From positions 2,852,001-2,916,000 of the forward strand of contig NZ_CP071462.1 of assembly GCF_017352155.2 (NCBI RefSeq): a stretch of DNA of 64,000 nucleotides, read 5' to 3'. This document shows positions 445-48,488 of the stretch, piece after piece (positions within the stretch are counted from its first letter, which is position 1; the number at the start of each line of letters is the position of its first letter). The notes beneath the pieces are model-generated. The model did not search any database and was not told the origin of the DNA. It saw only the letters and a list, made by a program, of their open reading frames with translations. Origin of the DNA: Haloterrigena alkaliphila (lineage in GTDB: Archaea > Halobacteriota > Halobacteria > Halobacteriales > Natrialbaceae). The translations under genes were made by a program, and so were the position numbers.

Positions 445-1494
445 GTGGACCGGTACGCAAGCGAGTTCCCGTTCGAACTCCGAACCTGTCGCTGGGCGGA
501 ACGCGCCTGGCCGCCCGAGGCGGCCGCCAGTGACGACCGCGCGTTCCTCGTCGCCCGGCAACTCGGCACGAAACGCCGCCGCTGGGATACGATCGTCCTC
601 GAGTGCGATCCCGGGGCCCTCCGCGAGCGGGCGAAATTCGGCCTCGAACGACTCGATAGCGACCTCCTCCACGTCGTGCGGAACGCGCCCGCGGAGTGGT
701 CCTACTACCGCGATTGTCTTCCCCATCCCGGCTACCCGTGGCGGTACGTCCGCGAAGCGATCCATCGGGCCGACGACCGCGGGATCCTCGAGACGCGCCG
801 GGCGGGCAACCGCATCGAGATCCGCCGGAAGTGGCCCTATCCCGACTGGCTCGAGCGGATCGTCGCGATCGAGAACAAGCCCGACCTCGATAGGAGCGCC
901 GCCCGCGTGCTGGGCGCTCAACTCGAGTACGACGTCGCGATGGGGCTAGCCGACGAGGTCTGGGTCGCCACCCGAACAACTGGCGACCGCGTCGAGCCAG
1001 CGCTCTTCGAGGATCTGCCGGTCGAGGCGGGCATCCTCGCGCTGGATCCCGAAACGCTCGCGGCCGAGGTCGCGTGGTACCCTCGCTCGCTGGCCGTCGA
1101 CGAACCGGGCACGCGGATCCTCGAGCGCCCCGAGGGCGGCGAACGCGACGGTTCGGCGGCGCGGTTCGAGTACGTCGATCCCGACGAGAAGGCCGAGACG
1201 CGACTCGAGATCGCCGAGCGGGCCTACGAGCGCGGCTGGCGCTCGTTCGTGGACACGATGCGCCCCGACTGTCGCTACTTCGAGTTGCGCGCGCGGGAGG
1301 GAGCCCACCTCGAGCCCTACTGCGCGGCGAAGGAGCGGTGCCAGACGGCCGCCGAGTGCTCAGGGGGGTGCTCCGCGTTCGAACCCGAGCCGCCCGTCTG
1401 GCGGACGAACGGGTGGCCGATCGAGGGCGGACCCGGAAAGCGGACTCGGAAGTTGCTCGAGGCCCGGCGTCGGCGGCAGCGACCGGGATTGTAG
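445..1494 (+). CDS. DUF5787-like protein with PD-(D/E)xK-type motif and Cys cluster
   Basis: 349 aa, GTG start. I recognise this as the haloarchaeal DUF5787 type, a family with no known function. P133-D134 is followed eight residues later by E143-N-K145, a literal PD-x8-ExK arrangement. A helix and the hydrophobic strand DEVWVAT come next, as in the core of PD-(D/E)xK nucleases. The C-terminal part carries C293, C299, C305 and C309, spaced in a way that recalls the iron-sulfur cluster of Cas4/AddB-type nucleases. The tail is arginine-rich. Nuclease activity is my inference; only the motif and cysteines are seen. Codon use is typical of the neighbourhood and repeat copy 1 follows the stop. Confidence 0.75.
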   Translation: MDRYASEFPFELRTCRWAERAWPPEAAASDDRAFLVARQLGTKRRRWDTIVLECDPGALRERAKFGLERLDSDLLHVVRNAPAEWSYYRDCLPHPGYPWRYVREAIHRADDRGILETRRAGNRIEIRRKWPYPDWLERIVAIENKPDLDRSAARVLGAQLEYDVAMGLADEVWVATRTTGDRVEPALFEDLPVEAGILALDPETLAAEVAWYPRSLAVDEPGTRILERPEGGERDGSAARFEYVDPDEKAETRLEIAERAYERGWRSFVDTMRPDCRYFELRAREGAHLEPYCAAKERCQTAAECSGGCSAFEPEPPVWRTNGWPIEGGPGKRTRKLLEARRRRQRPGL

Positions 1495-1560: not shown

Positions 1561-1754
1561 GTGGCGCGCGCTGGCGGCCGCCCTCACCGTCGTTCGGGCG
1601 GCCGTCGATCATGCGCGAGGGATGAGCGAACGAGCGGTGCGCGGCGCTTTGCGTCGCGGCAAGGCGGACGGCCGGAGGTCGTGAGCCAGCGAGAGAGCGA
1701 ATCGGCAGGGGAGGGCGTGGCGAATCCCAGGTGCCACGATAGCAGGACACTCCG
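1561..1754 (+). repeat. interspersed hairpin element, copy 1
   Basis: First of four copies of an intergenic element. It begins GTGGCGCGCGCTG, continues with a hairpin (arms GGCCGCCC at 1576-1583 and GGGCGGCC at 1596-1603, about 10 bp with flanking pairs), then GCGAGGGATGAGCGA, GAGCGAATCGGC, GGGGAGGGCGTGGCG and ends TGCCACGATAGCAGGAC. The final part forms a second small hairpin (GTGGC with GCCAC). This copy has about 50 extra bases between the GATGAGCGA block and the GAGCGAATCGGC block compared with the others. It lies between the convergent 3' ends of the DUF5787- and DUF5797-type genes, and the 395-base gap holds no convincing gene. Confidence 0.85.
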
Positions 1755-1889: not shown

Positions 1890-2393
1890 TCAATCGGAGA
1901 CGGCAACCTCGAGTTCGTCGCGGTCGACGGTCAACCGGAAGGTGGGAACGGTGCGGTACTCGACCTCGACGACGCCCTTGCGGCGCAGGCTCTGCAGGCC
2001 CGATCGGACGTCCTCGGCTTCGGGGTCGACGTCGTACTCGTCGCGGAGTTTGTGCACCACGGAGACCACGCTCTCGGACTCCTCGTCGGGCCCGGCCAGC
2101 ACCGCGACGATCTGCGACTGGAGTTCCGGTACCCGGATCCGGGAGGGGACGCCGTCGTCCTCGGGGTCGCTCTCGATGCCGGGTTCGACGTCGACGAGAT
2201 CGTTCGCCTCGGCGGTCGCGCGGATCAGGCTGTTGTCGTCCCGGAAGTAGTAGTCGCTCAGTTCGTTCTCGAGGTACTGGTGGACCTCGCTGCCGCTCTC
2301 CATGTCCCAGCGCTCCTGGAGCTCCGAGTTCTTCGTCGGCTGTAGTTCCACCACGTCCGCCAACCGTTCCGTTGCCTCCTCCGAGAGCGTCAT
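1890..2393 (-). CDS. DUF5797-like conserved haloarchaeal protein
   Basis: 167 aa from ATG at 2393; upstream codons in the same frame look non-coding. The N-terminal half (residues about 5-65) reads as a winged helix, with acidic helices around LQERWDMESGSEVHQYLENEL. The C-terminal half repeats a similar helical pattern, with an LRDEYDVDPEAEDV helix and a basic SLRRKG wing. I take it to be the haloarchaeal DUF5797 family, probably a DNA-binding or small regulatory protein. No catalytic motif is visible. Confidence 0.75.
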   Translation of the reverse strand: MTLSEEATERLADVVELQPTKNSELQERWDMESGSEVHQYLENELSDYYFRDDNSLIRATAEANDLVDVEPGIESDPEDDGVPSRIRVPELQSQIVAVLAGPDEESESVVSVVHKLRDEYDVDPEAEDVRSGLQSLRRKGVVEVEYRTVPTFRLTVDRDELEVAVSD

Positions 2394-13954: not shown

Positions 13955-14031
13955 TGCTCCCGGGGGGGAATCGAACCCCCGACCTCCAGCTCGAAGGGCT
14001 GGCGTCTCTCGCCACCGGAGACTCCGGGAGC
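13955..14031 (-). tRNA. tRNA-like gene, anticodon loop UUC (Glu?), non-canonical
   Basis: All four stems pair on the minus strand: acceptor GCTCCCGG/CCGGGAGC (8 bp as written), D-arm GTCTC/GAGAC with GG in the loop, anticodon CCAGC/GCTGG with loop CCTTCGA, T-arm GGGGG/CCCCC with loop TTCGATT, discriminator A. The loop centre reads UUC (glutamate). Departures from canonical tRNA are an 8-bp rather than 7-bp acceptor (13-bp acceptor/T helix), C instead of U33, and no U8. The G7 run at 13962-13968 could hide a one-base sequencing error that would restore a 7-bp stem but not U8 or U33. Confidence 0.6.
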
Positions 14032-19026: not shown

Positions 19027-19759
19027 TGGTGAGGATAGGAACCGCACTGACCGCTCCGATAGTGTGACAGTCGCGGCTGCGACTGCCCGTGCACTTCCGC
19101 AATCCCAAGCCACTCTGAACAGCGAATGGCGCAGTCAGATTTGCGGCCGTGCGCTTCCCATGCGTTTCTTCGTTCGGACGGACTAAAGGATTTCTACACT
19201 GGTTTCCTCGAATTCTCGAATCGGCCGAACGGTGCTCGAGAGTCGATTACTGTCCCGCAAACACCACGAAAGCCCCTGCCGCTATCGAGTCGGGCGCCTC
19301 GCTGCGCGTGGTTCGAGAGAGCTTCGCTCTCTCGTCATCACGAAAGACGCGAAGCGTCTTTCGAACGCCTTCGCTCACTTCGTTCGCTCCAGTGCTTGCT
19401 TCGTCGACCTTCCTCGATAGCGGCAGCCCCTTTCATTCCCGCCCGTGTCGGCTGGCCGGTCATGCCACCGTAGGGTGGGAATGAAAGGGGCTGACGCGTG
19501 CGTGGCGGCTTCGCCGCCACGTTATTGGCGGTCGGCTCCGCCGACCGCCCACTCGATCCCTCCCGGGCGACGGTGAGCCGAACGAAGTGAGGCGAACGTC
19601 GGAAGACGAGTGAAGCGAGTCTTCCGGAATAAGCACGCGACCGTAGGGAGCGCGCGCAGCGAGCCCCGGAGGGTCGAGCGCGTCAGGGGCTTTCGTGGTG
19701 TTCTCGAGAGATCCAGTACTGAAAGAATGGAGTGCGATCGCGGTCAATCGAGTGACCGA
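19027..19759. other. 733-base intergenic region, mostly palindromic repeat
   Basis: Bases 19027-19240 should hold the promoter of the ribosomal operon (reading leftward) and show no gene. Bases 19260-19702 are the palindromic mosaic described separately. The last part precedes the 3' end of the acyl-CoA synthetase gene. Short frames here are readings of the repeat, not genes. Confidence 0.6.
19260..19702. repeat. 443-bp palindromic repeat mosaic with terminal inverted repeats
   Basis: The ends are a 19-bp perfect inverted repeat (AACACCACGAAAGCCCCTG at 19260-19278 and its complement at 19684-19702). Inside, CTCGATAGCGGCAG (about 19414-19427) complements the GCCGCTATCGAG by the left end. CAGCCCCTTTCATTCCC complements GGGAATGAAAGGGGCTG about 50 bases later. 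Smaller hairpins include GTGGCGGC/GCCGCCAC and GGCGGTCGG/CCGACCGCC. No transposase is present. The GAAAGGGGCT word recalls intergenic repeats I know from other haloarchaea; function unknown. Confidence 0.8.
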
Positions 19760-39875: not shown

Positions 39876-40682
39876 CTAGTCGTTCGTCGACCGCGCACTG
39901 TCGGGATAGGCCTCCACGAGCGTCGTCAGCGCCTCGTGATGGGGCGTCGAGTGGGGCGCAGTCAGCGGGGAGACGCTGATGCGGCCCTCGACGACCGCCC
40001 GTCGGTCGGTTCCCTCGGGGTCCGGGAGGCTCTCGGGATCCATCCGTTCCCAGACGCGATCCTTGAGGTGGACCCGGTTCCCGTCCCGTTCGGCGTCCAT
40101 CTCGTAGCGTTTCGAGGGCCGGGTGATCTCGACGGGTGCGGGATCGCCGTCCGCGACGGGCACGTTGACGTTGAGGTACGCGGCGTGGTCGAACACGCCG
40201 GCCTCGAGGGCGTGTTCGACCAGATAGGAGGTCACTCGGGTCGCCTCGGCGTAGTCGTCGGTCGCGAGGTCGATCTGACTCAGCGGCGCGTCCTCGACGG
40301 GGACGTACATCGACGTGGCGATGGCCGGGACGTCGAAGAAGGCGGCCTCGACGGCGGCGCTGATCGTTCCCGAGCGACCCAGCACGTACTCGCCGAGGTT
40401 GGCGCCCTTGTTACAGCCCGCGACGACGATGTCGGGGTCGGGGCCGAGTTCGGCCAGGCCGGCGACGACGCAGTCCGAGGGCGTCCCGTGGAGGGCGTAG
40501 CCCAACTCGTGCGTCTCGACGTCGACCTCGTGGGACATCGAGCGCCCGCAGGCGCTCTGGTCGGTCGCGGGAGCGACGACGGTCACGTTGCCGCGTTCGG
40601 AGAGGGCGTCGTACAGCGCCCGGAGCCCGGTGCTGTGGATCCCGTCGTCGTTGGTCAGCAGGATCTCGAGGCGATCGCTCAT
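39876..40682 (-). CDS. surE: 5'/3'-nucleotidase SurE
   Basis: 268 aa. The metal site LLTNDDGIHSTGL (adjacent Asp pair), DQSACGRSMS, and the Asn-containing GCNKGANLG loop are the SurE signature. The enzyme removes phosphate from nucleoside monophosphates with a divalent metal. YLNVNVP and the helix-rich acidic C-terminal half are as in other haloarchaea. It stands alone on the minus strand. Confidence 0.93.
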   Translation of the reverse strand: MSDRLEILLTNDDGIHSTGLRALYDALSERGNVTVVAPATDQSACGRSMSHEVDVETHELGYALHGTPSDCVVAGLAELGPDPDIVVAGCNKGANLGEYVLGRSGTISAAVEAAFFDVPAIATSMYVPVEDAPLSQIDLATDDYAEATRVTSYLVEHALEAGVFDHAAYLNVNVPVADGDPAPVEITRPSKRYEMDAERDGNRVHLKDRVWERMDPESLPDPEGTDRRAVVEGRISVSPLTAPHSTPHHEALTTLVEAYPDSARSTND

Positions 40683-41168
40683 ATCCGTCGGGTCGGAAGC
40701 CGACGCGAAAAGCCCACCGCTTTAGCAGGTCGTTCGGTGGATCGGTTTCCGGGTGCTCGCCGATCTTTGACGGGTCGGGTCCCCACTGATCGCTCGAGCG
40801 GTTACGACGGTCGCACCCGCTTCAAGCGGCCTCATCGTAGTTGGTAGTACCGTCTCTCTGTTCGGAAGTGTCCGTGAAACCGCGGTCAATAATGGCTGAG
40901 GAACCGGCGTGTAGTGGCGCGCGCTGTCAGCCGTCCGAGTGAGCGCGAGGGCGGCTGACGATTTCGTGCGAGGGATGAGCGAGTGAGCCTGCGAACGAGC
41001 GAATCGGCTGGGGAGGACGTGGCGATTCCCTGTTGCCACGATAGCAGGACGCTTCGTTTCACCCGTCGCTCCAATCGAAGCGTCGTTCCATTCGCACGTA
41101 TCGGCACCGCATAGAGCGTTTTCGTACTATATCGAGTCCGAATAGGAAATCGCCAGACCGACCATCGC
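40683..41168. other. 486-base gap with repeat copy 2
   Basis: No gene. The first 200 bases include the promoter side of surE; 40897-41056 is repeat copy 2; the remainder up to the methyltransferase stop is AT-enriched (CTATATCGAGTCC near 41130). Confidence 0.55.
40897..41056 (+). repeat. interspersed hairpin element, copy 2
   Basis: TGAGGAACCGGCGTGTAG leads into GTGGCGCGCGCTG, a hairpin with arms GTCAGCCG (40926-40933) and CGGCTGAC (40952-40959) extendable to 11 bp, then GTGCGAGGGATGAGCGAGTGA, GAGCGAATCGGCTGGGGAGG, and GTGGCGATTCCC ending TTGCCACGATAGCAGGACG. It lies between two minus-strand genes (downstream of the methyltransferase, upstream of surE). Confidence 0.9.
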
Positions 41169-42779
41169 TCAGCCGATCCGGTCGACGATCGTCTCCTCGT
41201 CGACGACGAGGTTGTACGCCCCCTCGTCGTCGTTCCAGAGCGCAAGGATCCGTTCGAACGACAGCACGTCGCCGTAGTCGGCCTCGAGCAGCGGACGGTT
41301 GAGCGTCGTCTCCGTCGTCAGGACCGCGTAGTGGTCGACGGCCTCGCTGCCGTCGCTGATCTTGAACAGCGGGTTCGAGCGGCCGCCGCCACCACCGCCT
41401 CGGCCGTCGTCCCCGCGGTCGCTCAGCGACCGGCTGAGTTTCGCGGCGACGAGGTCGATCCGGTTCGTGACGTGGCGCTCCATCTCGGCCATCTTCGCCC
41501 AGTCGCTGGTGGTCAGCGAGAGGTCGATCCGCCGCCGGCCGTCGAGTCGCAACAGCGAGGAGGAGAACTGCACGTCGACGTTGACGAACTCGCCGGGGGC
41601 GTGCTCCTCGTCGTCGGGCGGGGCCGCCTCGTCGAGTTTCCGCTGGAAGGAGGGGACCTCGAGGTCGGGTCTGGCGTCGAACGACCAGCCCCGATCCGCG
41701 GGGCGCTCGCCCGGCCAGAGTCGGACGGTGGGACCGTAGACCGTCACTCGGCCGTACTCGTCGGCTTTGCCGTTATCCGCACTGTCCCTTTCCTCGCCGT
41801 CGTCCCCATCCTCCGCTTCCTCGCCGTCCTCGCCCATGCCCATCTCTTCGGGCGTCCACAGGCGCTCGTCCTCGAGTTCGCGTTCGACCTCGCGCAACCC
41901 GACGCTGGTGTTCTTGTCCGCGGGCGCCATCGCCAGCAGCGTCCCGTCGGGCGCGAGCGTCTCGAGCGCAGAGCGCAGGACGGCGGCCGGATCAGCGAGT
42001 TCGTTCAGCACGTTCGCGGCGAGCACGAGATCGAAGCCGTCGTCGGGCGCGGTCGGATCGAACGCGCCGTCGCCGTCGCCGGCGGCGACGTCGCCGGGGT
42101 CGAATTCCTCCGCGGTCGTCCGGTGGATCGTCGGGTGGACGTTCCGGCCCGTCTCGGCGAGCAGTTCCTCGAGGACGTCGGCCGCCGCGCTGGGTTCGAC
42201 CGCGTGGTAGTCGAGCAGGGCGTCCTCCGGAAGATAGTCGCACAGTCCGAGGGCGGGACCCCCGACGCCGGCGCCGATGTCCAGGACCCGCAGTGACCGC
42301 CCGAGCAGGCCGCGCTCGGCGAGGTCGTCCAGCGCGTACTGGACGGCGGCGTAGTAGCCCGGCAGGTGGTAGATCGCGTACCCCGACGCGACGTCCTCGT
42401 CGTACTCCACCGGGCGGCGCTCGAGGTAGCGGCGCTTGAACCGCCGAATCGTCGACCGCAGGAGTTCCCCCGTGGCGTCCTCGTGCCAGTTCGCGCCGTA
42501 GCGGTCGACCAGCAAGTCCTCGAGGCGGCGTTCGTATCTGGTGGGGAAGCGCTCTACGGGGCCGGGGTTCGCCGCGACGGGGTCGTCGTCGACGGGGACG
42601 AACGTCCCGTCGTCGCGCTCGAGCAGGCCGAGTTCGGGCGCCAGTTCGCGAAGGTGCTGGCGAACGACCGCCGGATGCGGGTTCCCCTCGACGTACTCGC
42701 AGATCTCGTCCGGATCGATCGGCCGGACGTGCTGCAGGTACTTCGCGTTCGAGCGAACGGCGTCGCGCTGGTCGCTCAC
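41169..42779 (-). CDS. Rsm22-like SAM-dependent methyltransferase
   Basis: 536 aa. The SAM-binding motif is VLDIGAGVGGPALGLCDYL (about 165-185), preceded by SGYAIYHLPGYYAAVQYALDDL, the conserved leader of Rsm22-type ribosomal small-subunit methyltransferases. FDLVLAANVLNELAD and a TLLAMAPAD strand follow. Residues about 300-345 are an acidic Glu/Asp insert and near 470 a Gly-rich loop. The C-terminal half is otherwise strand-rich. It follows tyrA with a four-base overlap, so the two are co-translated. The rRNA role is inferred from family. Confidence 0.75.
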   Translation of the reverse strand: MSDQRDAVRSNAKYLQHVRPIDPDEICEYVEGNPHPAVVRQHLRELAPELGLLERDDGTFVPVDDDPVAANPGPVERFPTRYERRLEDLLVDRYGANWHEDATGELLRSTIRRFKRRYLERRPVEYDEDVASGYAIYHLPGYYAAVQYALDDLAERGLLGRSLRVLDIGAGVGGPALGLCDYLPEDALLDYHAVEPSAAADVLEELLAETGRNVHPTIHRTTAEEFDPGDVAAGDGDGAFDPTAPDDGFDLVLAANVLNELADPAAVLRSALETLAPDGTLLAMAPADKNTSVGLREVERELEDERLWTPEEMGMGEDGEEAEDGDDGEERDSADNGKADEYGRVTVYGPTVRLWPGERPADRGWSFDARPDLEVPSFQRKLDEAAPPDDEEHAPGEFVNVDVQFSSSLLRLDGRRRIDLSLTTSDWAKMAEMERHVTNRIDLVAAKLSRSLSDRGDDGRGGGGGGRSNPLFKISDGSEAVDHYAVLTTETTLNRPLLEADYGDVLSFERILALWNDDEGAYNLVVDEETIVDRIG

Positions 42780-44546: not shown

Positions 44547-44652
44547 CGACGGCGGCGGGAGGTTCCCGCGTCTCGTTGCATCAGTGCCGAGGTGCCTGCA
44601 TCCCGTCGCGTTGGGGCCGGACTACTTGACGGACGGCGCCGAACGGGCCACC

Positions 44653-45708
44653 GTGACCCGAATCGGAATCGTCGGCGCGGGCGCGGCCGGCGCGGCCGCC
44701 GCGTACGCCCTCGAGACCGCGGGACCCGACTCGCGGGTGACCGTCCTCGAGAAGTCCGGCGGCCTCTGCGGCCGCGCGGCCACCCGGCGGCGCGGCGACG
44801 TCACCTACGACTACGGCGCGAACTACGTCAAGGCCGACGACGAGCGGGTGGTCGACCTGCTCACGGAGACCCTCGCGACTGACGGGCTCGTGGATGTGGC
44901 GGAGCCGATCTGGACGTTCGACGGCGATGGCGCAGTCTCGGAGGGCCGGGACGCCGACGAGCACAAGTGGACCTACCGCGAGGGACTGACCCAGATCGCC
45001 AAGCGACTCCTCGAGCGAACCGACGCGACCGTCCACCGGAAGACGTGCGTCGAGACGATTCGCCAGGATTCCGGCACCGGAACGTGGCAACTCGAGGACG
45101 CCAGCGGCGACCAGTGGGGTCCCTTCGACGCCGTCCTCCTGAATCCGCCGGCGCCCCAGACCGCCGACCTGCTGCGGGACGCCGACTGGGAGTCCGACGG
45201 CGGCCTTCGAGAGCGGATCGTCGACGCAATCTCGAGCGTTCCCTACCGGACGATCTGGACCGGCGTCTTCCACTACCCGTTCGAACTCGAGCAACCCTAC
45301 TACGCGCTGGTGAACACCGACAAGGCCCACGAGATCGGCTGGATCGCCCGCGAGGAGTGCAAGCCGGGCCACGTTCCCGACGGCGAGACGCTGCTGATCG
45401 TCCAGGCCAACCACGAGTGGTCGCTCGAGCGCTTCGACGACGACCCCGACGAGGCCCTCGAGGACCTCGCCGAGCTCACCGCCGACGTGATGGACGACGA
45501 GCGGTTGCTCGAGCCCGACTGGACGGCCCACCAGGGCTGGCGCTACGCGCAACCCGAGGACGGCGTCGACCGCGAGCCGATTCGAGAGGCCGAAGCGGAG
45601 GGGTTGTACTGTCTCGGCGACTGGGTCGCCGGCGAAGGGCGACTGCACGCCGCGTTACGGAACGGTCTCGAGACCGGCGAGCGCGTCACGAATACTAACT
45701 CCAGATGA
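44653..45708 (+). CDS. FAD-dependent amine-oxidase/renalase-like oxidoreductase
   Basis: 351 aa from GTG at 44653 (VTRIGIVGAGAAGAAAAYAL); upstream in-frame codons lack protein character. Dinucleotide loop GxGxxG followed by VTVLEKSGGLCGRAATRR (FAD ribose and second motif), DYGANYVKADD, and a C-terminal FAD segment LYCLGDWVAGEGRLHAALRNGL. The set matches the renalase/NAD(P)-FAD oxidoreductase group. Substrate unknown. Its stop codon is the first TGA of repeat copy 3. Confidence 0.82.
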   Translation: MTRIGIVGAGAAGAAAAYALETAGPDSRVTVLEKSGGLCGRAATRRRGDVTYDYGANYVKADDERVVDLLTETLATDGLVDVAEPIWTFDGDGAVSEGRDADEHKWTYREGLTQIAKRLLERTDATVHRKTCVETIRQDSGTGTWQLEDASGDQWGPFDAVLLNPPAPQTADLLRDADWESDGGLRERIVDAISSVPYRTIWTGVFHYPFELEQPYYALVNTDKAHEIGWIAREECKPGHVPDGETLLIVQANHEWSLERFDDDPDEALEDLAELTADVMDDERLLEPDWTAHQGWRYAQPEDGVDREPIREAEAEGLYCLGDWVAGEGRLHAALRNGLETGERVTNTNSR

Positions 45709-45859
45709 GGAACCGGTGTGTGGTGGCGCGCGCTGTAGCGCGGTGAACCACCGGTGAACCGCGCTACAAATGCGTGCGAGGGATGAGCGAGTGACCGGAG
45801 GGAACGAGCGAATCGGCTGGGGAGGGCGTGGAAGTCACTGTTGCCACGATAGCAGAACG
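45706..45859 (+). repeat. interspersed hairpin element, copy 3
   Basis: TGAGGAACCGGTGTGTGGTG starts inside the preceding gene's stop codon, then GGCGCGCGCTG, a hairpin with arms TGTAGCGCGG (45734-45743) and CCGCGCTACA (45759-45768), GTGCGAGGGATGAGCGAGTGA, GAGCGAATCGGCTGGGGAGG and the end TTGCCACGATAGCAGAACG. The second small stem has lost two pairs here (GTGGAA against GCCAC). It faces copy 4, with 21 bases between. Confidence 0.9.
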
Positions 45860-45880
45860 AGGGAAAAAGCATCCTGCATA

Positions 45881-46008
45881 CGTGGCGGCAGGGGATCGCC
45901 ACTCCCTCCCCAGCCGATTCGCTCAGTCGCTGCGCTCCCTCGCTCATCCCTCGCGCAATATCATCGTCCGTTCTCACTACCGTTCGAACGGACGACAGCG
46001 CGCGCCAC
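45881..46008 (-). repeat. interspersed hairpin element, copy 4 (inverted)
   Basis: On the minus strand it reads GTGGCGCGCGCTG, a hairpin with arms CGTCCGTTC and GAACGGACG (plus-strand positions 45965-45973 and 45986-45994), GCGAGGGATGAGCGAGGGA, GAGCGAATCGGCTGGGGAGG, GTGGCGATCCCC and GCCGCCACG. Together with copy 3 it forms a 300-base imperfect palindrome in the 45709-46061 gap, between convergent gene ends. Confidence 0.9.
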
Positions 46009-46061: not shown

Positions 46062-47252
46062 TTACTCCGCCGTCGGCTCGAGTCCCACCCGATAGTCGGT
46101 CAGGTTCTCGTAGCCGTTCTCGGTGACGACGATCAGGTCCTCGATGCGGACCCCGCCGACGGCGGGGTCGTAGATACCGGGTTCGATCGAGATCACGTGG
46201 CCAGCCGCGAGGTCGCCGCCGGAGGGGGAGACGCTGGGCTCCTCGTGGATGTCGAGGCCGACGCCGTGGCCGGTGCTGTGGATGAAGCCGGTCTCGGTAT
46301 TAGGATCGCTCCGAAGGGTCTCGTAGCCCGCGTCCTCGATGACGTCGCAGGCCGCGTCGTGGACGGCCGCGCCGGTGACGCCGGCTGCGACGGTCTCGAG
46401 GGCGGCCTCGTACGCCCGTTCGGTCACCTCGTACCGCCGCCGGGCCTCCTCGCCCGGGTCGCCGCGGGCGAACGTCCGGGTCATGTCCGCGAAGTAGCCC
46501 GTCTCCTTGTCCCGCGGGAAGATGTCGATCACGATCAGTTCGTCGGCCTCGAGCGGGCCGCTGCCCCGGTCGTGAGGATCGGCGCCGTCCGCGCCGCAGG
46601 CGACGATGGTGTCGTCGAGGCCGCAGCCGTGGCGGAGCAGCGTCACCTCGATCTCTTCCGTGACGCGCTCGCTGGTGAGCGCCTCGCCGTCGCTGACGAG
46701 GACGCCGTCGCCGTCCACGTCCGCGGTCGCGATCAGTTCCTCCGCGCGGGCCATCGCGGCCTCGTTGGCCCGCTGGGTCGCGCGGATCTGCTCGAGTTCC
46801 CACTCGGTCTTCGTCGCCCGGACGTCCTCGACGATCCCCTCGGGTTCGACGGTGACCTCGAGGCCGCGCTCGCGCAGGCCGTCGGCGGTCCCGGTCGGGA
46901 AGTTCCGCGGGACGGCGACCGAGTCGACGCCGTGGTCCTCGAGGAACGCCGCGAGGACGCGGCTCTTGCCCTCGTAGGCGCCGTGTTCGGCGACGAGCGT
47001 CTGGTAGTCGTAGGCGGCCAGCCGCGACACCGAGTCCGCGCTAGATTCCTTGCTCGCGCGACCGTACTCGAGTCCCGAGACGAGCAGGTGGACGCCGTCC
47101 TGGGTCACCAGCGTCTGGTAGGGGTCCGGCGCCGTGAAGCCGGAGACGTACCGCTGGTCGGCGTCCGAGGCGTCGTCGTCGATCAGATAGCCGTCCAGCC
47201 CCTCGGTCTCGAGGTGGTCGCGCAGGGGCGAGAGGTCGACGTCTACGTCCAT
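46062..47252 (-). CDS. M24 family aminopeptidase (Xaa-Pro type)
   Basis: 396 aa from ATG at 47252 (MDVDVDLSPLRDHLETEGLDGYLIDDD). The N-terminal creatinase-like domain is followed by a pita-bread metallopeptidase with the five metal ligands visible: DIFPRDKETGYFADMTRTF (two Asp), HSTGHGVGLDIHEEP (His), ISIEPGIYD (Glu) and GVRIEDL (Glu). It removes N-terminal residues before proline. Converges on the FAD oxidoreductase through repeats 3 and 4. Confidence 0.9.
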   Translation of the reverse strand: MDVDVDLSPLRDHLETEGLDGYLIDDDASDADQRYVSGFTAPDPYQTLVTQDGVHLLVSGLEYGRASKESSADSVSRLAAYDYQTLVAEHGAYEGKSRVLAAFLEDHGVDSVAVPRNFPTGTADGLRERGLEVTVEPEGIVEDVRATKTEWELEQIRATQRANEAAMARAEELIATADVDGDGVLVSDGEALTSERVTEEIEVTLLRHGCGLDDTIVACGADGADPHDRGSGPLEADELIVIDIFPRDKETGYFADMTRTFARGDPGEEARRRYEVTERAYEAALETVAAGVTGAAVHDAACDVIEDAGYETLRSDPNTETGFIHSTGHGVGLDIHEEPSVSPSGGDLAAGHVISIEPGIYDPAVGGVRIEDLIVVTENGYENLTDYRVGLEPTAE

Positions 47253-47345
47253 ACGTCGGTGTGTGGCGGGCAGCCACATAACCCCGGCTATCGCGGATCG
47301 ATTCGGACCCACAAACTTATCAATTAAGAAGATACTCTGTCGCGT

Positions 47346-48488
47346 ATGAATCGGCGACGGATCCTGGCGGCCGGCGCGGTGGTCGCGCTCGGCGGGTGCG
47401 TGCGACAGACCGCCGACGAGCCGCCGTCGGCCGACGCGCTCGTCCGGGAGGCCGTCGAGACGCGCCGGGGGATGACCGACCTCGCGGCCCGTCGCGTCGT
47501 GACGGCCGAACTCCCGGACGAGACCCGCGAGCGAACGGAACGGTTCGCCAGTCGGCCGCCGGCCGCACAACGGCGGGAGATCCTCGAGTCGACCGATCCA
47601 ACGTTCCCGGAGGGCTCGGTCGACGTGACCAACCGGGAGGTGACCTGGGAGTACGATCCGACGACCGACCGCGTGGAGAAGCAGTACCACCCGAACAAGG
47701 TCGACTCCGACCGGCCCCAGCGCGTCCTCGAGATGCTCCTCGAGGAGTACCGGCTGGGCTACGAGGGACGCGAGACCGTCGACGGGCGCGAGGCCCACGT
47801 CGTCGAGACGAAGCCCCCGGAAGACGACCGCGGCCCGACGATCGACCTGGTCGTGGGGGACACGACGTACGTCGTGCCGCTGGGATCGACGGGCAGCCTC
47901 GAGGAACTGGACGTGACCCGGACCGTCTGGATCGACGACGAGTACCGGTATCCGATCCGGGAACGAACCGTGCTGAACGACGGTGGCGAGACCGTCCACA
48001 GCCTGTCGGTCACGTACGCGGACCTCGCGATCGACGAGGGGCTGGCGCCGGGGACGTTCACGTACGACCCCCCTGCGGACGCCGAGGTCGTCACCGAGGG
48101 CACCGAACCGGACGGGGCCTTCGCCTCTCGGGACGCCGCCGAAGCCGCGGTGCCGTACGACCTGCCGGCGCCGGACGTCCCGGACGCGTTCGAACTCGAT
48201 CGGATCACGGTCGTCGACCGGAAGGACCAGTACGGCGGGGTGACCGCGACGCTGTGGTACGACGATCCGGACGTGGTCGCGCGCGAACTATACGTGACCG
48301 TTCGGGAATTCCAGCGGTTCAGACCGAGCGCGCTCGAGGAGATCGAGATCGACGGTCGAACGGCCTACCTGCGCGACGGGCGGCGGAAGTGCGTCTTCTG
48401 GGTCTGCGACGGGCTCAACTACGAGGTCTCGAGCGTGACCGGCGACGAACCCTTGCGCGAAATCGCGGCCTCGATCGGCTGTCCGTGA
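47346..48488 (+). CDS. lipoprotein with LolA/RseB-like fold
   Basis: 380 aa. Tat-type start MNRRRILAAGAVVALGGC with lipobox Cys18. The mature part shows strand-rich LolA/outer-membrane carrier-like repeats (VTAELPDETRERTERFAS, VTWEYDPTTDRVEKQYHP, GREAHVVETKPP, TVWIDDEYRYPIRERTVL), then YDPPADAEV and a second small domain (about 270-380) with two Cys (RKCVFWVCD). Clearly related to the lipoprotein at 59437. Probably a surface lipoprotein; ligand not known. Confidence 0.75.
   Translation: MNRRRILAAGAVVALGGCVRQTADEPPSADALVREAVETRRGMTDLAARRVVTAELPDETRERTERFASRPPAAQRREILESTDPTFPEGSVDVTNREVTWEYDPTTDRVEKQYHPNKVDSDRPQRVLEMLLEEYRLGYEGRETVDGREAHVVETKPPEDDRGPTIDLVVGDTTYVVPLGSTGSLEELDVTRTVWIDDEYRYPIRERTVLNDGGETVHSLSVTYADLAIDEGLAPGTFTYDPPADAEVVTEGTEPDGAFASRDAAEAAVPYDLPAPDVPDAFELDRITVVDRKDQYGGVTATLWYDDPDVVARELYVTVREFQRFRPSALEEIEIDGRTAYLRDGRRKCVFWVCDGLNYEVSSVTGDEPLREIAASIGCP

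Follow-up and report, generated by a model that had tools for sequence, protein, structure and literature searches.

REPINs carry invariant blocks around a variable hairpin in which compensatory changes occur (PMC3116915). Haloarchaeal intergenic terminators consist of a run of T, in some cases preceded by a hairpin, and the intergenic termination sites of Haloferax volcanii are T stretches that end at C (PMC7237163). We compared with these systems an intergenic element present in four copies in the window, by which we mean the whole 64-kb stretch of DNA analyzed. A first-pass annotation of this DNA had proposed the four copies, and all of them were recovered where it had placed them. The four sites stood, but the starts of copies 2 and 3 had taken in 17 nt of weaker upstream similarity. 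As delimited by covariance model R1, which was built from 45 host copies, the copies and the gene setting of the first are as follows.

1561 to 1747, plus strand: copy 1, a long form (R1 match G000:C1:2853561-2853747)
445 to 1494, plus strand (DUF5787), and 1890 to 2393, minus strand (DUF5797): the convergent genes that form the setting of copy 1
40914 to 41049, plus strand: copy 2, a full element (R1 match 2892914-2893049, 145 bits)
45723 to 45857, plus strand: copy 3, half of a tail-to-tail pair (R1 match 2897723-2897857)
45872 to 46008, minus strand: copy 4, the other half of that pair (R1 match 2897872-2898008)

Copy 2 is antisense to both of its neighbors, SurE (39876-40682) and a methyltransferase (41169-42779), which lie on the opposite strand. 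Copy 3 starts 14 bp past the stop of an amine oxidoreductase gene (44611-45708, plus strand), and copy 4 lies beyond the stop of a peptidase M24 gene (46062-47999, minus strand). When the four copies were aligned, the blocks GTGGCGCGCGCTG, GCGAGGGATGAGCGA, GAGCGAATCGGCTGGGGAGG and GCCACGATAGCAG were seen in all of them, around a hairpin that differs from copy to copy, just as the annotation had described.

Searched with R1, the host genome yielded 147 matches. Every one of them lies on the 3.82-Mb chromosome; the two other host contigs (447 kb) gave none. With overlapping and partial matches excluded, this family of folding elements has about 142 copies on the chromosome. When at most one mismatch was allowed, the host genome had about 121 occurrences of the core 15-mer and 0 of the reversed control; with up to three mismatches in the 64-kb window alone, the frequency of the 15-mer was near chance, whereas that of the four exact copies was not. 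About 100 host copies were retrieved as sequence, mostly through the conserved core, and decayed copies are therefore hidden from this set.

RNAalifold, run on 45 copies, predicted an element of about 135 nt with four helices, P1, H1, P2 and a short P3, of which P3 is the weakest. P1 (CGCGCG with YRYGCG) encloses H1, and P2 and P3 come after. The single variable hairpin of the first-pass annotation corresponds to H1 and is thus only one helix of the four. H1 is a variable stem of 8 to 11 bp, with a GA/GA step and a 2-bp step beneath its loop in 223 of 226 parsed copies. P2 is a ladder of 2-bp steps with tandem G.A pairs between them, laid out as GAU-GA-GC-GA-[insert]-GA-GC-GA-AUC. Most inserts are 7 or 15 nt long, which corresponds to a single 2-bp step or to two of them separated by GA/GA, and P2 is capped by a GNA triloop in 154 of 226 copies. 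A tandem-G.A ladder with quantized 8-nt growth is an unusual nucleic-acid architecture. A conserved tail, CGATAGCAGGAC, is also present. The parts of copy 2 are placed as follows.

40918 to 40923, plus strand: 5' strand of P1, CGCGCG, pairing with 40965-40970
40965 to 40970, plus strand: 3' strand of P1, CGTGCG
40927 to 40958, plus strand: H1, with arms TCAGCCGTCC (40927-40936) and GGGCGGCTGA (40949-40958)
40937-40938 and 40947-40948, plus strand: GA/GA step of H1, with the apical loop between
40974 to 41005, plus strand: P2 ladder, GAT-GA-GC-GA-[GTGAGCCTGCGAAC]-GA-GC-GA-ATC
41006 to 41037, plus strand: P3, GGC (41006-41008) with GCC (41035-41037) and a conserved G-rich loop between
41038 to 41060, plus strand: conserved tail ACGATAGCAGGACGCTTCGTTTC, pyrimidine/T-rich

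Longer copies carry extra hairpin modules built on the same grammar, in H1, in P2 or at the joint between P1 and P2. Copy 1, for example, has a 65-nt insert in P2 and an H1 loop without the GA/GA step. At L002, L013, L031, L083 and L325:1215-1440, P2 contains a further module of two hairpins, GCGCGGRACC..GGTYCCGCGAACC..GCGAACGG..CCGTGAGC, inserted at either of two positions, and L325 has an additional hairpin between P1 and P2. Since the core helices are kept in module-bearing copies, modular growth is tolerated by the fold.

We then asked how well the fold is kept in 95 copies from other genera, which lie outside the R1 training set but whose alignment was fitted to R1. Pairing was found in 94.2% of cells, compared with 77.7% after shuffling and at most 48% when the pairing was slid. 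Two-sided change occurred at 25 of 29 pairs, and none of 500 shuffles reached the observed values. Because the alignment had been fitted to the model, mutual information was also computed without any structure. Its top three signals were the P2 pairs i4-i10, i1-i13 and i0-i14, and the top eight also included c12-m2 and i5-i9, with 89 to 99% of combinations pairable. One G position of P1 is an A in 21 copies, of which 20 have T with it. The H1 arms were 88% paired, a figure that fell to 69% when arms were swapped among copies. Unpaired arms or a lack of covariation were looked for in copies elsewhere, and neither was found.

From flanking sequence, we identified 62 orthologous element pairs within the genus. 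Among the 21 pairs with alignable H1 arms, 12 base pairs had changed on both sides and were still paired, versus 2.1 expected if substitutions fall independently on the arms. Fifteen base pairs had been lost or gained versus 36.6 expected losses, although the comparisons are not independent, several of them drawing on a common locus. Paired changes in place were seen at L025/L089 (C-G to T-A), L026/L093 (A-T to G-C) and L280/L315 (G-C to T-A), and the tail-to-tail pair at 45.7 kb was found in four sister species with differing arms. Because the arms change together at orthologous loci, the covarying fold must be selected in situ at individual chromosomal loci. Compensatory change, claimed from the window alone, is thus strongly supported both in copies outside model building and at orthologous loci, and selection on the structure is supported; paired changes seen in place make it unnecessary to suppose, as the annotation did in the alternative, that each insertion brings a newly made hairpin. 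Across all 62 orthologous pairs, the median H1 similarity was 0.69 versus 0.64 for unrelated copies, and at some loci the element may have been replaced by another copy (conversion).

Two-sided changes could also arise if palindromes were kept, with no selection at all, by template-switch (quasi-palindrome) correction during replication. Strands do exchange in these elements: between sister species, the interior of a pair is inverted relative to the flanking genes at L117/L119 (G295 versus G356) and L282/L301 (G181 versus G295), a pattern suggestive of recombination or template switching inside the palindrome. Correction of this kind should nevertheless erase mismatches, and GA/GA persists in 223 of 226 copies of H1 and 140 of 150 of P2. 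In addition, G.U is tolerated and A.C is rare in P1 and P2, and the unpaired blocks are invariant. We regard this reading, already disfavored, as the least probable of those weighed here.

G.U pairs outnumbered A.C pairs by 40 to 6 in P2 and by 95 to 45 in H1 and were far above them in P1, where one pair had 48 G.U against 36 G.C. The sense strand was predicted to be more stable than the antisense strand in all 150 copies under RNA parameters and in 147 of the 150 under DNA parameters, a difference due partly to base composition. The G.U excess and the greater stability of the sense strand show that the folding strand is the one reading GAGGGATGAGCGA, as RNA or single-stranded DNA, in line with an earlier guess of a structured element, here made strand specific. 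The excess of G.U over A.C in P2 and over G.C at one P1 pair suits an RNA reading. GNA triloops are very stable in DNA hairpins, and RNA usually prefers GNRA tetraloops.

The elements are intergenic, with only 1 of 97 copies overlapping a called gene; the calls were made with a simple codon model for which the window was the training sequence. For 175 copies from several genera, the spacer holding the element was convergent in 62 cases, divergent in 27, tandem with the element in sense in 43 and tandem with the element in antisense in 43. Element-free gaps of at least 100 bp were convergent in 50 cases, divergent in 122 and tandem in 179; elements are therefore enriched in convergent spacers and depleted in divergent ones. 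Close pairs in the host (n = 25) were tail-to-tail in 23 cases, head-to-head in 2 and direct in 0, with the same trend in other genomes. Element integrity, which is a comparison between contexts of copies retrieved through the conserved core and not an absolute conservation rate, was similar in all gene contexts and equal in tandem-sense and tandem-antisense spacers. T3+C was present 8 to 45 nt past the element in 29 to 32% of copies versus 8% for the reverse motif, and a strong T run was absent from most copies. We found no promoter-like (TATA-like) composition peak upstream of the copies and no replication-strand (replichore) bias among the host copies.

These data bear on several proposals. 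The earlier guess of a 3'-end processing element of the neighboring mRNA is not supported in its simple form, as copies are equally often antisense to tandem genes and equally conserved there. Nor is there support for an element in the 3' untranslated region of the upstream gene or for an intrinsic terminator of that gene, there being no sense preference in tandem spacers (43 versus 43). We also rejected a TnpB omega-RNA or IS1341 right end, since none of 11 PF07282 places in the host adjoins a copy, the smallest distance seen being about 2 kb. Trans-acting small RNA genes, each with its own promoter, would be structured, strand specific and independent of neighboring gene orientation, as the elements are. 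However, the upstream regions lack a promoter-like peak, and more than 100 copies per genome together with tail-to-tail pairing would be unusual for such genes, making this reading very unlikely.

The explanation that we rank first, while holding it only tentatively, is a strand-specific fold, probably RNA, that acts as a polar transcript boundary. RNA polymerase arriving from the 5' side would make the folded RNA, the nascent fold would be bound by a protein or would pause the polymerase, and the T-rich tail would be where transcription (or the RNA) ends. Two elements placed tail to tail would then halt both sense and antisense transcripts, whichever side they come from. It ranks first because it explains the folded strand, the tolerance of G.U, the tail-to-tail rule, the T-rich tail and the scarcity of copies in divergent spacers, and the orientations of close pairs are those expected of two facing polar stops. 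The equal sense and antisense counts and equal integrity imply that the element is not tied to the neighboring mRNA, so that our first-ranked reading needs antisense transcripts from some source. We count this equality against the boundary reading, along with the missing upstream promoter-like peak, the scarcity of strong T runs and the GNA triloops.

A close second, in our view possible, is a REPIN-like function at the DNA level, with a folded single DNA strand being recognized (in replication or recombination or as a cruciform). Recognition would once have spread the copies, each of which would now be a site kept by the host, perhaps one used by a topoisomerase, a nuclease or a chromosome organizer. 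This reading ranks high because gene orientation is irrelevant to the element and because REPINs, too, show invariant blocks around a variable compensating hairpin. It also accommodates the equal intactness of copies in every context, their REP-like placement away from promoters, the inverted doublets, the GNA triloops and the two loci at which pair interiors are inverted between sister species. It fits less well with the preference for G.U in P1, with the lack of replication-strand bias and of copies on the two other host contigs, and with a 135-nt element of several helices in place of a 20- to 40-nt palindrome. Moreover, PF01797 (the Y1/RAYT transposase) is absent from three genomes of the same genus, G192, G295 and G356, and from other carriers, e.g., G005, G028, G077 and G107. 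Identity with RAYT-REP systems was rejected: several carriers have no RAYT, and the element has other invariant blocks and no short palindrome with a GTAG- or CGTC-type tag.

Many dispersed copies might also point to a MITE, that is, a decaying or active nonautonomous transposon in which the structure is needed only for movement. Some subfamilies have up to about 250 bp in common at up to 94% identity, and copy number ranges from 64 to 147 within the genus, with 64 to 108 copies in each of five other genomes. Yet no two of the approximately 100 retrieved host copies exceeded 95% identity, no viral contig had the two-block pattern, only five plasmid records, all large, had matches, and orthologous copies remain intact in place while their arms covary. 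We therefore consider a MITE unlikely. The identity figure also speaks against a recent transposon in its simple form, and the earlier guess of a mobile unit, taken as currently active, is not supported, given the few plasmid matches, the lack of viral matches and of near-identical retrieved copies, and the absence of the Y1 transposase from several copy-rich genomes.

An IS200/IS605-type MITE would be marked by precise empty sites or by near-identical copies of recent origin; we saw no clean empty site at either of the two loci examined, the 45.7-kb pair and L015. G192, a candidate empty site at the former, instead retains a remnant of the pair (L121:1416-1510) with an internal deletion, in which the initial half of one element runs on at GCGC into the beginning of its partner. 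At L015, G197 has a long-form copy, and G181 and G356 have a different gene. This apparent small gene, standing where the host and G197 have the element (L323:2540-3035 and L324:2217-2590), has tandem repeats of about 63 bp that differ in number between G181 and G356.

We looked across the class for the exact core 15-mer and found it in 125 of 391 genomes and in 38 of 86 sampled haloarchaeal genera. At least 80 named loci have the element, all haloarchaeal among the matches listed, with carriers that include Natrinema, Natronococcus, Natronorubrum, Halosimplex, Halococcus and Halorussus. A scan of the window with Rfam at gathering thresholds gave no match at the elements. A relaxed scan of the tail-to-tail pair gave subthreshold matches only, mostly to plant or animal microRNA models on the long palindrome. 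The whole pair (45774-45956) matched the plant microRNA precursor models RF04159 (66 bits) and RF04119 (54 bits), well below their cutoffs, presumably as an effect of a long GC-rich palindrome. Elsewhere in the window, on the minus strand, are an S15-Halobacteria ribosomal protein leader (19091-19161; RF03143, 72 bits) and a weak tRNA match (13958-14028; RF00005, 32 bits, cutoff 29), which may be an unusual or decayed tRNA gene. The literature searched gave no earlier description of the element, and its sequence strings occurred in none of 5.39 million papers. A conserved fold this numerous is thus absent from both Rfam and the literature searched.

It is possible, though we hold this fuller statement more loosely, that the elements are a haloarchaea-wide, previously undescribed structured RNA family with a tandem-G.A ladder and more than 100 chromosomal copies per genome, serving as genome-wide, orientation-independent polar transcript boundaries. 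That a single archaeon maintains the fold at more than 140 chromosomal loci implies a general process, be it transcript boundaries, chromosome organization or a domesticated mobile system, and such a process can be tested directly in culturable haloarchaea, e.g., Natrinema and Haloterrigena.

The element resembles the STAXI motif, a candidate structured RNA, in having a covarying fold for which RNA and single-stranded DNA readings compete, but it differs in sequence, structure and context, as judged from the description of that motif (PMC2864571). With the intergenic terminators of H. volcanii (PMC7237163), it shares placement at gene ends and a fold followed by T/TC enrichment; unlike them, it has a large conserved multihelix fold, T3+C in only about 30% of copies and no sense bias. 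Like the REPINs and BIMEs of Pseudomonas and enterobacteria, it has more than 100 intergenic copies per genome, forms inverted doublets, lies away from promoters and persists by descent. It departs from them in being haloarchaeal, in its 135-nt multihelix fold with a tandem-G.A ladder, in several carriers without a Y1/RAYT gene and in a doublet that is made of whole elements.
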